This document shows positions 20,680 to 33,280 of a DNA stretch of 64,000 nucleotides, piece by piece. Each line of letters begins with the position of its first letter. Positions within the stretch are counted from its first letter, which is position 1. Under the pieces are notes generated by a model, which was not told where the DNA came from, did no database searches, and saw only the letters and a program-made list of their open reading frames with translations. The translations under genes were made by a program, and so were the position numbers. The stretch is from the NCBI GenBank assembly GCA_005777185.1, contig SXNL01000242.1:1-64000 (forward strand), written 5' to 3'. The stretch is from Myxococcales bacterium (GTDB lineage Bacteria; Myxococcota_A; Polyangia; Polyangiales; Polyangiaceae).

Positions 20680-21306
20680 TCAGGGCGCGTTCGCCTTGTC
20701 GCCGATCTTCTTCGCGACGTACGCGTAGTCGTGCTCCCGGAGCATCTTCGCCACCTGCTCCCGGTAGTTCGCCGTGAGGCTCGAGCCCTCCGTGACGATG
20801 TCGACGACCCGGTACGCCTCGCCCGACCCGCGAACGACGTAGTCGATCTGCACGGACGGATCGCGCGGCTTCACCTTGGACTTCGCCTCGGTGCGGATCT
20901 TCGACTCGTTCTGCACCGTCGCGCGCGAGCCCTTGTAGGTGATGTCGTAGTCGAGCGTCTTCATGAGGTTCTTGCGGTACGTCTTCTGCACGAGCTTCTT
21001 GAACAGACCCGTCATCTCGGCCTTCTGCGCCGAGGAGAGGCTCGTCCAGTTGTCCACGCAGGAGATCCCCGCCGGACACATCCCGAAGATGCGCCGGGTG
21101 AGTTCGTCGTAATCGAAGGTGATGCCGAGCTCCTGGTCGACCTGCCCGTCACGCGAAGCCGTGGACGGCTGGCGGAGGAGCTGGGAGATCTTGCCGTGCT
21201 TCTGCTCGATGAACGACTGCGCCTCGCTCTCGCCGGCGAACGCCGGGAGCGAGACCAGGCAGAGGGTGGAGAGGACGAGGGCGGCGAGGGCGTTACGGGT
21301 TCGCAT
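20680..21306 (-). CDS. MlaC/Ttg2D-like periplasmic phospholipid-binding protein
   Basis: The 208-residue protein from ATG 21306 has a cleavable signal peptide (MRTRNALAALVLSTLCLVSL, cleavage after PAFA) and the ABC-auxiliary/MlaC fold. Recognisable segments are ITFDYDELTRRIFG, LSSAQKAEMTGLFKKLVQKTYRKNL and YRVVDIVTEGSSLTANYREQVAKML. MlaC proteins shuttle phospholipids between outer- and inner-membrane complexes. The protein has an extra Cys pair (FGMCPAGISCVDNW) not typical of the family. An MCE/MlaD-like protein is encoded 9 kb away at 29974, but no permease or ATPase is in the window. It lies 181 bp downstream of pilS. Confidence 0.8.
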   Translation of the reverse strand: MRTRNALAALVLSTLCLVSLPAFAGESEAQSFIEQKHGKISQLLRQPSTASRDGQVDQELGITFDYDELTRRIFGMCPAGISCVDNWTSLSSAQKAEMTGLFKKLVQKTYRKNLMKTLDYDITYKGSRATVQNESKIRTEAKSKVKPRDPSVQIDYVVRGSGEAYRVVDIVTEGSSLTANYREQVAKMLREHDYAYVAKKIGDKANAP

Positions 21307-21487
21307 GGTTCTCCGACGGTGGAACGTGGGCACGAGGGGGGGTGCCCGCCCGCGTGGATCTATCCGCGTTGGACGAGAAGTCAAAAAGCGTCATGCATGC
21401 CAAACCGAAAGTCGCGCAAGTTCCTGGAATCATTCATCAGAAAGGGTGAACGGCGACGGGGGGCACGGGCGACTCGTGAACGCGGGT

Positions 21488-29353: not shown

Positions 29354-29857
29354 GTGGCCAACGACGACGCCCGCGCTCCGGATGCGCCCGCAACTCCGAC
29401 GGAGCCAACGCCCCCCGACGCCGCCCGTGCCGAGGCTAATCCGGTCGCGGAGGTCGCGCCGCCGAAGGCTGCGGCGGCACCCCTCGAGAAGCCCAAGGTG
29501 TACTGTCGCGATCGGGCGCGCGCGCTCGTGCACAAGTACGCCATCGCGGGGACGGCGTTCGCGGCGATCCCCATCCCGATGGCGACGAGTCCCGGCCTGA
29601 CGGCGCTGGAGACGCACCTCATCTACTGGATCGGTCGGACGTACGACGACGCGCCGACCCACCCGGAGACGCTCATGATCGCCAGCGGCCTCGAGCTCGC
29701 GAGCGTCGGCCTGCGCACGGTGGCCCGCGAAGCTGCGGGCCTCGTGCCGGTCGTCGGATGGGTCATCAAGGCGGCGATCGCCGGCGCGTCCATCGAGGCG
29801 ATCGGGAACGTGATCATCCACCATTTCGAAGGCAAGCATCCGAACAAGCTCTGCTGA
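29354..29857 (+). CDS. DUF697-like small membrane protein
   Basis: The 167-residue protein has a Pro/Ala-rich N-terminal tail of about 45 residues followed by a compact domain with the pattern VHKYAIAGTAFAAIPIPMA, then TALETHLIYWIG, then VPVVGWVIKAAIAGASIEAIG. This resembles the DUF697 domain that is usually attached to GTPases of the YcjF/dynamin-related group. Two amphipathic or membrane-embedded helices are likely. The GTG at 29354 follows the peptidase gene by nine bases. A dynamin-like GTPase is encoded 1.7 kb further on, on the other strand, but no direct link can be shown. Confidence 0.65.
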   Translation: MANDDARAPDAPATPTEPTPPDAARAEANPVAEVAPPKAAAAPLEKPKVYCRDRARALVHKYAIAGTAFAAIPIPMATSPGLTALETHLIYWIGRTYDDAPTHPETLMIASGLELASVGLRTVAREAAGLVPVVGWVIKAAIAGASIEAIGNVIIHHFEGKHPNKLC

Positions 29858-29921: not shown

Positions 29922-29949
29922 GAAATCGTCGCTTGCGGAAGCGATTTCC
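29922..29949. promoter_or_regulatory. Hairpin upstream of the MCE gene
   Basis: The arms gaaatcg-tcg-ctt and aag-cgatttc pair around a gcgg loop with one three-base bulge. The hairpin is AT-richer than its surroundings and ends 24 bases before the ATG of the MCE gene. It could be a terminator for the upstream pair of genes or a site controlling the MCE gene. Confidence 0.45.
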
Positions 29950-29973
29950 TGATACCTCTCTCGTGCTGAACGG

Positions 29974-31443
29974 ATGGCCAAGCTCACCCAGGCAGCCAAG
30001 GTAGGGGCGTTCGTCATCGCCATGAGCGGTGCCAGCTACTTCGTCTACCGGACCGTGAGCAAGGAGGTGGGGGGCGGGTCCGGGTACGTCGTGCACGCGT
30101 ACCTGGTCGACGCGACCGGCCTGGCGCCGCACTCCCGCGTCACCATGGCGGGCATCCCGGTCGGTTCGATTCAGAAGATCTCGCTCGAGCAGGGCAGAGC
30201 GCGCGTCGACGTTCGCGTCGCGGGCGACGTGGCGCTCAACCAGAGCGCCCGGCTCGGCGTGAAGAGCGCCTCGCTGCTCGGCGAGAACATCATCGTCCTC
30301 ACGCCGGGCGTCGGCGAGCCGCGCAAGAAGGACGGCGACGAGATCGACGTCATCCCGGAGGGGCGCACCTTCGACAACCTGAAGGATCAGATGGGGCGCA
30401 TCGCGGATCTCGTCGAGAAGGTGGCCGCTCAGCTCGCGGCCACCATCGGCTCCGATCAGGGCCGCGAGCAGATGAAGACGATCCTGCAGAACCTGACCGA
30501 GGCCACCGAGGCCATCAACCTCACCGTGCGTGAGAACCGCGCGGCCGTGAAGGAGACCCTCACCAGCATCGACGCGATCACCACGCGTGGTCAGCCCGAG
30601 ATCGCGAAGATCCTCGAGAACGTCCGGATCATCACCGAGGACGTCCGCGCCCTCATGGCGAAGGGCGGGGCGAGTGGCCAGACAGGTGAGCTTCGGGCCA
30701 CGATAGAGCGCCTCGATCGCGCGTCGAAGAGCCTGGAGTCCACGCTCGAGAAGACCGACGTCATCGCGGGCCGCATCGAGCGGGGCGAGGGCAGCCTCGG
30801 CAAGCTGTCCAAGGACGACGCGCTGGTCAACGAGGTCCAGGGCGTGGCGGAGGGGGTAGGGGACTACGTCGATCGCCTCCAGCGCCTTCAGACGGTCATG
30901 GGCCTCCGCAGCGACTACAACTTCCTGGCGAACACCATCAAGAGCTACGTGGAGCTCAGGCTCCAGCCTCGGGAGGACAAGTATTACCTCATCGAGCTCA
31001 TCAACGACCCGCGCGGGAAGACGACTTTCACGCAGACCGACGTCGACACCACCAACCCGAACGATCCCGCCCACTACCGCACCGTGACGACCACCACGAC
31101 GGACGCCTTCCGGTTCTCGCTGCAGTTCGCGCGGCGCCTCGGCCCGGTGACCGGGCGCTTCGGCATCAAGGAGTCGACGGGCGGGGTCGGCCTCGACCTC
31201 CACCTGCTCTCCAACCGCTTCGAGATCATCAGCGACTTCTTCGGCTTCGGGGAGGAGATTCGCCCCAGGTACCGCGTGTACATCGGGTACGAGTTCATCA
31301 AGCGCCTCTGGCTCCTCGGCGGCGTGGATCACGTCTTCCTGACGAACCGACGCGACTACTTCCTCGGCCTCCAGCTTCGCTTCACCGACGACGATCTGAA
31401 GACGGTGCTTCCCTTCACGGGCGGGGCCACCACCACACGGTGA
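29974..31443 (+). CDS. MCE/MlaD-type lipid-transport protein with a possible C-terminal beta-barrel
   Basis: The 489-residue protein starts with a membrane anchor (VGAFVIAMSGASYFVYRTV, about 10-28) and one MCE domain (YVVHAYLVDATGLAPHSRVT, AGIPVGSIQKISL, KSASLLGENIIVLTPG, about 38-115). A long helical region follows (about 140-300), with heptad patterns and the MCE-typical ERGEGSLGKL. The last 170 residues are different: they look like amphipathic beta-strands (FRFSLQFARRLG, RYRVYIGYEFIKRL, YFLGLQLRF) ending in an aromatic-rich strand. A trans-envelope lipid conduit reaching into the outer membrane is possible. It is the only MCE protein in the window; the MlaC-like gene is at 20680. Confidence 0.85.
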   Translation: MAKLTQAAKVGAFVIAMSGASYFVYRTVSKEVGGGSGYVVHAYLVDATGLAPHSRVTMAGIPVGSIQKISLEQGRARVDVRVAGDVALNQSARLGVKSASLLGENIIVLTPGVGEPRKKDGDEIDVIPEGRTFDNLKDQMGRIADLVEKVAAQLAATIGSDQGREQMKTILQNLTEATEAINLTVRENRAAVKETLTSIDAITTRGQPEIAKILENVRIITEDVRALMAKGGASGQTGELRATIERLDRASKSLESTLEKTDVIAGRIERGEGSLGKLSKDDALVNEVQGVAEGVGDYVDRLQRLQTVMGLRSDYNFLANTIKSYVELRLQPREDKYYLIELINDPRGKTTFTQTDVDTTNPNDPAHYRTVTTTTTDAFRFSLQFARRLGPVTGRFGIKESTGGVGLDLHLLSNRFEIISDFFGFGEEIRPRYRVYIGYEFIKRLWLLGGVDHVFLTNRRDYFLGLQLRFTDDDLKTVLPFTGGATTTR

Positions 31444-31513: not shown

Positions 31514-33280
31514 CTAGGCGACGCGCACCTTGTCCTTGGGGGCCCAGAGGGCGGCGCGGAGGTCGTCGAGCTTGGTCTTCGACGCGTCGAGGCGGCCCGC
31601 CTGGACGTCGAGGTCCTCCTTCATCTGCTCGTCGGTGCGACCGCCGGCCTCGCGCGCGGCCTTCGTCGCGTTCAGGACCTCGAGGACCTCGCGGTGGAGC
31701 TCGGTGCCCGCACTCACGACCCACGCGTCGAGCTTGGTCGCGAACTCGTCGATCATCTCCTCGAAGCGAGGCGCCATCTTGTCGGCGGCCTGGCGGACCA
31801 GGTCGGGAGCCAGCTCCTTCGCCCTCTTCTTGTACTCGGCGTCGAGGCGGTCCTTGAAGACGATCGCCAGGACGGGCGCCGCCGCCATGATGGCCAGCCC
31901 CACGAAGACGTTCACGAGGAGTGCGCCGAGCCCAACTGCGAATACGCCCGCGACGCCCATGTCGTACTTGAGGCTGTCCACGTGCACGTCGAGGCGCTTC
32001 TGGTCCATCCCCATGAGCTCGGCGATGCGCTTGGTGCTCTCGTGCGCGTCCTCCCGGACGAGGGCCACCGTCGTCTCGGCGAGCTCCTCGAGCTTGGCGG
32101 CGATGTCCTTCGTCTCGGCCTCGACCCAGGTCTTGAAGGTGTCCTCCAGGAAGGCCGGGAGGTGCTTGTTGAGCTCGTCCTTCTTGGCGTTCTCGATGAT
32201 CGTGGGGAGCTGGCGCACCGTCTCGTCAACGAAGCGCTCGAGGTCCTTCTTCGCGAGCATCTTGATGGCGCTGACCTCCTCCTTGATCTTGATGCGGCGC
32301 TGCTCGATCGTGCCCGCCTGGCCCGCGAGGTCCTGCTCGAGCATCTTGATGCGGCGGTCCAGCTCCTCGCCCTTCATGGCGAGCGATCGTCGGCGCGCGT
32401 CGATCCCCTTCTGCAACATGGCGTGTACGTTGAGCGCCTCGCCGAGCGCGTTGTCGAGGAGGATGCGGCCACGCTCCTCCGCGAGGAAGCGCGTGAGGTG
32501 ATCGAGGAGCTCCGGCATGCCGCTCTCGGCGCCGCGACCGGCGAGGGCCGTCTCGGCGCTGATCGGGAAGACGACCGGGTCCTTCACGAGGGTCGCGAGC
32601 TGTGCGCGCGCGTACTCCAGGGCCTCCTTGCGCTCGTTCTCGTCGAGGATGTCCCACTTCGTGATGACGAACACGATCTTGTCACGCGACGCCTTGAGGA
32701 GCTTCTCCTGCAGGAAGATTCGCTCGGACTCCTTGAGGATCTGCCCCGCGTCGAGGAGGAAGAGCACCGCGTCGGCGCGGGGGATGTAGCTGTAGGTGAT
32801 GTCCGCGCGCGAGAGCGACAGGTCGTTCACGCCTGGGGTGTCGACGAGGAGGATCCGCTCGCGGAGCAGCGGCGCGGGGTAGCCCACCTCGAGGTAGTCC
32901 ACGTCGTCGGCGCTCTCGCCGCCGCCGACGGCGAACCTCCGCGCCCCCTCGAAGGGGATGACCTCACGTCGGCCCGACTGGTAGACCACCGCGGCCTCGG
33001 GGGACTCGGCGTGCTTCAGGTGATGGATCGCGGCGGTCGTGGGCGTGACGCCTACCGCGAGGACCGTCTCGCCGAGAAGCGCGTTCACGAACGACGTCTT
33101 GCCGTGGTTGAACTCACCCACGACGACGAGGTGGAAGCGATCCTCCTCGAGCTTCTTCACGAGCTCCCTGTCGACCCGCTCCTTCAGCGTCCGCGCCCCC
33201 ACGCCGTCGGCGACGAGCGAGAGCTCCGAGATGGCCACAGTCACGTCGAGCTTCCGCTCACGAAATGCGTCGAGCATCAT
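31514..33280 (-). CDS. Dynamin-like GTPase
   Basis: The 588-residue protein is a bacterial dynamin-like protein. It has the P-loop G-E-F-N-H-G-K-T-S-F (55-64), a switch I Thr pair in TPTTAAIHHLK, D-T-P-G (G3), and T-K-W-D (G4). The long helical neck and trunk that follow contain a hydrophobic pair (GVAGVFAVGLGALLVNVFVGLA and the next helix, near 450-490), which probably inserts in the membrane. Such GTPases remodel or stabilise membranes. Switch II is followed by LSLSRADITYSYIPRADAVL, typical of the family. It lies 119 bp downstream of the M48 peptidase gene, with two hairpin repeats in the gap. Confidence 0.9.
   Translation of the reverse strand: MMLDAFRERKLDVTVAISELSLVADGVGARTLKERVDRELVKKLEEDRFHLVVVGEFNHGKTSFVNALLGETVLAVGVTPTTAAIHHLKHAESPEAAVVYQSGRREVIPFEGARRFAVGGGESADDVDYLEVGYPAPLLRERILLVDTPGVNDLSLSRADITYSYIPRADAVLFLLDAGQILKESERIFLQEKLLKASRDKIVFVITKWDILDENERKEALEYARAQLATLVKDPVVFPISAETALAGRGAESGMPELLDHLTRFLAEERGRILLDNALGEALNVHAMLQKGIDARRRSLAMKGEELDRRIKMLEQDLAGQAGTIEQRRIKIKEEVSAIKMLAKKDLERFVDETVRQLPTIIENAKKDELNKHLPAFLEDTFKTWVEAETKDIAAKLEELAETTVALVREDAHESTKRIAELMGMDQKRLDVHVDSLKYDMGVAGVFAVGLGALLVNVFVGLAIMAAAPVLAIVFKDRLDAEYKKRAKELAPDLVRQAADKMAPRFEEMIDEFATKLDAWVVSAGTELHREVLEVLNATKAAREAGGRTDEQMKEDLDVQAGRLDASKTKLDDLRAALWAPKDKVRVA

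Follow-up and report, generated by a model that had tools for sequence, protein, structure and literature searches.

An elongated form of MlaD has been described in V. parvula (Grasekamp et al., 2023; PMC10665443). In the main text of that paper this protein of 419 amino acids is presented as having an N-terminal anchor, one MCE domain, a long helix and a C-terminal barrel, with no MlaA; the barrel was modelled as ten strands, and the two ends of the protein were placed in the inner and outer membrane by fractionation. Such barrels were inferred there in 103 sequences, approximately 10% of MlaD, and tend to be found in the absence of MlaA and MlaC, this being a tendency and no rule. It was also argued that a phospholipid would not fit inside so narrow a barrel. 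No word starting with Myxo or Deltaproteobacteria is found in the same main text, and a literature search gave no paper recognisable, from its title and the start of its abstract, as concerning such proteins in Myxococcota. The MlaD of E. coli (183 amino acids) consists of an anchor and an MCE domain with neither a long helix nor a barrel, and E. coli is described as relying on MlaC and MlaA (PMC10665443). In E. coli PqiB and in the Mce1A-F proteins of M. smegmatis, an MCE ring is described as leading into a helical tube (PMC10665443), the arrangement proposed below for our protein; by published accounts PqiB has three such rings and is partnered by an outer-membrane lipoprotein, and Mce1 is a heterohexamer to which each chain contributes one strand at the tip.

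The stretch of DNA analysed here (the window, 64,000 nucleotides) encodes a protein that prediction identifies as a further, well-conserved member of this published elongated, barrel-type MlaD; the idea itself is not new. Its sequence profile matches a chain of E. coli MlaD (6zy2, E 2.3e-14) and, as the best of the Mce1 chains, 8fed_B (E 8.9e-13). The order of parts is common to the window protein and V. parvula MlaD, a likeness drawn from prediction rather than from comparison of the sequences, although the former is longer (489 amino acids) and its barrel is modelled with 12 strand segments, two of them (residues 349-358 and 367-376) polar. The published V. parvula mlaD is encoded together with mlaE and mlaF, whereas in the window's family, as far as its loci were covered, the barrel gene lies outside an mlaEFD operon, and MlaC is present. 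What is new here is this separation from mlaE and mlaF, the tight mlaE-mlaF-mlaD operon of a relative from another family (genome G046), and the retention in the window's family of separate MlaE and MlaF proteins of that lineage.

Gene organisation and flanking sequences

The mlaD-like gene occupies positions 29974-31443 of the forward strand, from an ATG start to a stop codon within this range, its assignment resting on the open reading frame, the Pfam MlaD match, homologs and structural models. An N-terminal helix (residues 1-27, 29974-30054; helix at 2-27 in the model) is hydrophobic and likely forms an inner-membrane anchor. It is followed by a single MCE domain at residues 37-112 (30082-30309; PF02470, 59.4 bits against a cut-off of 25.1, E 4.1e-16). 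The equivalog model for MlaD of the MlaABCDEF system, TIGR04430, gives 62 bits and falls below its cut-off of 135, and no Pfam or NCBIfam family exceeds its cut-off in the tail. In a full-length AlphaFold2 model helices lie within residues 133-300 and strands from 306 onward. The MCE domain, the long helical segment and the strand-rich tail of 170 residues described in the first-pass annotation are thus all recovered.

The same annotation had begun the feature at 29922, which is the position of a hairpin, the gene itself beginning at 29974. An imperfect inverted repeat is indeed present directly upstream of the gene, but the upstream stretch of 91 nucleotides folds no better than its shuffles (z +1.09; 172 of 200 at least as stable), so the hairpin is not notable. 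Inverted repeats of 7 to 11 bases were seen in the upstream stretches of six of 17 relatives, none of the six, by eye, having the sequence found in the window. A common upstream motif, GTGAAGTTT, suggested by visual inspection of close relatives, was rejected as it occurs in just 7 of 70. A 167-amino-acid protein with a weak DUF697 match (E 0.019) is encoded just upstream (29354-29857, forward strand) and recurs near the barrel gene in two of 80 loci. Convergent with the barrel gene is one for a dynamin-like GTPase (31514-33280, reverse strand; Dynamin_N, E 1.9e-26), found near barrel mlaD in none of the 80 loci within the flanks examined.

The C-terminal domain

The C-terminal domain covers residues 306-471 (30889-31386). 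When modelled alone with AlphaFold2 from 72 sequences it is predicted to be ordered (pLDDT 83.9, pTM 0.70), forming a meander of 12 strand segments that most closely resembles barrels of the outer membrane or designed membrane barrels. A Foldseek search with this model gave four matches with E below 0.001, all of them membrane barrels (KdgM, 5.4e-4; two chains of the designed barrel TMB10, 8.4e-4; PcoB, 8.4e-4), with low TM-scores of 0.35-0.47 by query; a lyase was also returned at E 1.8e-3. In a second alignment (VIA) OpcA ranked first (Z 17.3, rmsd 4.2, 153 residues aligned), followed by TMB10, a designed barrel of ten strands (Z 14.8, rmsd 2.7, 133 residues aligned). Next below the membrane barrels in the ranking came soluble ones, namely DUF3598 (Z 12.0) and chains of nitrobindin, a barrel of ten strands (Z 11.5-11.9 over 134-136 residues), and the fold by itself therefore leaves a soluble barrel possible. 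A search of PDB sequences with the tail profile gave one match, with E 0.94, which was taken as chance.

The distribution of residues over the two faces of the strands bears on this point. Hydrophobic and polar residues alternate along the strands with a mean face difference of 3.15, compared with 1.59 (sd 0.34) after permutation, and alternation as strong was reached in none of 5000 within-strand permutations; for this test the strands were taken from the predicted model and a hydrophobicity scale with raised values for Trp and Tyr was used. The alternation is clear in nine strands, and the two polar segments named above barely alternate, so that approximately ten segments show the pattern of membrane strands. 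Of the two faces of the nine alternating strands, the polar one varies less among homologs (entropy 0.62 bits at 47 positions versus 0.84 bits at 44 positions; Mann-Whitney p 0.036). This favours a membrane barrel, in which the polar side would line the inside. The last strand, FLGLQLRF (residues 463-470, 31360-31383), stands 19 residues from the C-terminus; F463, G465 and L468 are invariant in the 73 rows of the alignment and F470 is kept in at least 90%. We take this strand to resemble the beta-signal of outer-membrane proteins that are substrates of BAM. On the predicted model, the tail may be read as about ten membrane strands with a hairpin outside the membrane.

Alternatively, the tail could be a lipid-binding barrel like those of nitrobindin or lipocalin, soluble in the periplasm at the end of the helical tube and handing lipid to a carrier such as MlaC. 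The scores of nitrobindin and DUF3598 are in keeping with this, as are the MlaC gene in the window and the presence of MlaC in 55 of 59 genomes, but the membrane barrels outrank the soluble ones in both searches, the better-conserved polar side would, in a soluble barrel, point to the solvent, and the last strand carries a BAM-like signal. We consider a soluble barrel rather improbable.

The helical segment

Residues 133-300 (30370-30873) are predicted to form a mostly helical, amphipathic segment with a period of approximately 103 degrees. The spacing of its hydrophobic residues, one repeat every 100-105 degrees, is of the kind seen in coiled coils or in a helical tube; for each helix tested, 0-1 of 1000 permutations was as periodic. 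A straight helix of residues 133-269 would measure approximately 20 nm and one of residues 133-300 approximately 25 nm. The tube is putative, model confidence in the helical part being very low (block means of pLDDT 33-43; pTM of the full-length model 0.39). In one genome the match to barrel MlaD (G033:C1:11066015-11067676) is split by approximately 200 extra bases in the helical segment within one open frame, and the length of the putative bridge may accordingly vary.

Conservation and distribution

Conservation was examined in 59 genomes of the family and order, that of the window included. A match to barrel MlaD at 1e-5 or better was obtained in 55, and by our own count of the match table it extends to the tail in 52, in some of them in pieces (G035, G036). 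Two genomes (G009, G026) have an N-terminal piece only and G051 the MCE part only; no match at this threshold was seen in G010, G013, G045 and G057. A scan of named genomes, in which the best 80 of 195 relatives were kept, returned titles of Myxococcales, Polyangia, Deltaproteobacteria and one Proteobacteria, and showed the gene in named strains of Sorangium, Polyangium and Minicystis. The full-length alignment comprises 72 of these 80 loci (L080 was left out for an in-frame stop, and L086, L088, L094-L097 and L105 as near-duplicate or partial); the tail alignment additionally omits L077. Mean identity to the window protein over the 72 homologs (71-72 counted per region) is 74% in the tail, 56% in the MCE domain and 48% in residues 113-305. 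The tail that the first-pass annotation singled out is therefore shared widely and is the best conserved region, unlike a loose end.

MlaE and MlaF

The window contains no gene for MlaE or MlaF. Its own genome (82% complete) has three MCE proteins, five MlaE and two MlaC. At 340 and 369 amino acids, the two MCE proteins encoded elsewhere are smaller than the barrel protein, and neither showed a match to its tail; one lies with two MlaE and an MlaF and the other beside an MlaF. Among 42 loci with approximately 6 kb on both sides of the barrel gene, a partial MlaE was found approximately 5 kb away in one (L070) and a close MlaF in none. The arrangement in G046, from another family of the same order, is a contiguous one in which mlaE, mlaF and a barrel mlaD follow each other and the last two overlap; the 528-amino-acid product of the latter is MlaD by Pfam, and the window protein aligns with it over its whole length, tail included. 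In G048 mlaE sits next to mlaF, with the barrel gene at another site in the genome.

Two kinds of gene in the window's family group with those of G046 and G048 in trees, an MlaE encoded beside alr and an orphan MlaF (contig C16 in the window's own genome). The trees were quick FastTree reconstructions, midpoint-rooted, with some overlapping loci present twice (e.g. L148 and L154) and, for MlaE, without the gene of G045. At the seven orphan-MlaF loci no other Mla part was found within the stretches examined. The placement of the orphan MlaF of the window's genome rests on the tree because its lead over a paralog on C341 as a match to G046 MlaF is narrow (215 versus 202 bits). The G046 operon, the grouping in the trees and the isolation of the orphan-MlaF loci suggest that a single MlaE-MlaF-MlaD system, its genes since drifted apart, is likely to exist in the window's family.

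The alr-linked MlaE tracks the barrel gene weakly (Fisher p 0.003, or 0.03 if a doubtful match in G010 counts as present), with tables for the 59 genomes that were filled by eye, ignore kinship and incomplete assemblies, score G009 and G026 as barrel-positive on their N-terminal pieces and G051 as negative, and are supportive at most. G045 and G051 keep the alr-type MlaE with the barrel protein missing, and G009 and G042 show the reverse. A second type of orphan MlaE (C209) was set aside as a partner since its presence shows no association with the barrel gene (Fisher p 1.0). In G000, two contigs (C388 and C105; L121, L123) both carry alr-mlaE with MlaE proteins 95% identical, reflecting either a duplication or an assembly that mixes two strains.

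MlaC and MlaA

The MlaC-like protein noted at 20680 in the first-pass annotation is borne out by a PF05494 match (E 3.9e-22); it is a periplasmic protein of 234 amino acids encoded at 20680-21384 on the reverse strand. The genomes lacking MlaC (G018, G025, G039 and G042) all have the barrel protein, which leaves 48 of the 52 barrel genomes with MlaC. MlaA (PF04333) was found in none of the 59, the window's own included, by a search that does find MlaA in E. coli. Of the published trend for MlaA and MlaC to be absent alongside barrel MlaD, the MlaA half alone holds in the sampled genomes, and the lack of MlaA fits a chain that needs none. In the window, in G005 (contig C55) and at locus L047 an MlaC gene lies 5-9 kb from barrel mlaD, which may point to a loose linkage; within the flanks examined it was not seen near the barrel gene at the other 79 of the 80 named loci.

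A proposed one-chain bridge

Taken as a whole, and as a reading built on sequence and prediction, the window protein is probably a long, barrel-bearing MlaD that connects the two membranes and transports phospholipid in a system without MlaA. Six copies would be held in the inner membrane, each by its N-terminal helix, their MCE domains forming a ring on an MlaE/MlaF ABC transporter; the helical segments would join into a tube of 20-25 nm crossing the periplasm, and every chain would end in a small beta-barrel inserted in the outer membrane. The cargo would be phospholipid, most likely taken from the outer membrane to the inner, and the partners in the window's family would be the MlaE encoded beside alr and the orphan MlaF, both elsewhere in the genome. 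The first-pass proposal of a span from inner to outer membrane in one chain, unlike the MlaA-dependent MlaD, holds as the best reading, given a tail that is predicted to be ordered and barrel-like and is conserved, and given that no MlaA was found in the sampled genomes. Counting against it are the scores of soluble barrels, the low Foldseek TM-scores, the weak full-length model, the distance of the gene from mlaE and mlaF in the window, the frequency of MlaC in the barrel genomes although a bridge would not need it, and the published argument on the width of the barrel. That the protein joins the membranes as a mere tether or anchor, with no lipid in the tube and MlaC as the carrier, would explain why MlaC is kept, but this is improbable as the MCE domain and the G046 operon point to a transporter, no MlaA that could partner MlaC was found in the 59 genomes, and the MlaC genes may go with the two remaining MCE proteins.

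Genomes without the barrel protein

In three genomes, G010, G045 and G051 (L172, L171 and L170 on contigs C215, C659 and C375), genes for MlaE, a short MlaD (172 amino acids in G045 and G051), a TolC-like protein of the OEP family, MlaC and MlaF are clustered, and the OEP protein may take the place of MlaA. The MlaF of these clusters falls in the barrel lineage (support 0.94-0.96) and the MlaE of G010 and G051, more weakly, with the barrel clade (0.60). This suggests, as far as sequence trees can, a swap between bridge and shuttle in either direction; acquisition of the short-MlaD cluster by transfer from elsewhere is also conceivable. Neither the barrel protein nor a clear alr-type MlaE was found in G013 and G057. 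We tentatively suggest, as a possibility that is less likely to be right than wrong, that one MlaE/MlaF lineage of the order has changed its route through the periplasm, using mostly the one-chain barrel bridge and in a few genomes a short MlaD, an MlaC shuttle and a TolC-like outer-membrane protein replacing MlaA. If true, this would be a natural exchange of bridge and shuttle on one engine, and would include a shuttle with an OEP-family outer end.

Significance for the order

These findings extend the bridge-type MlaD to most sampled genomes of one myxobacterial order, where strong conservation of its tail contrasts with a gene that lies away from those of its likely partners. The occurrence together, in a single order, of a predicted bridge protein, MlaC and a lack of MlaA makes this group a good test ground for the question of whether bridge and shuttle are alternatives.
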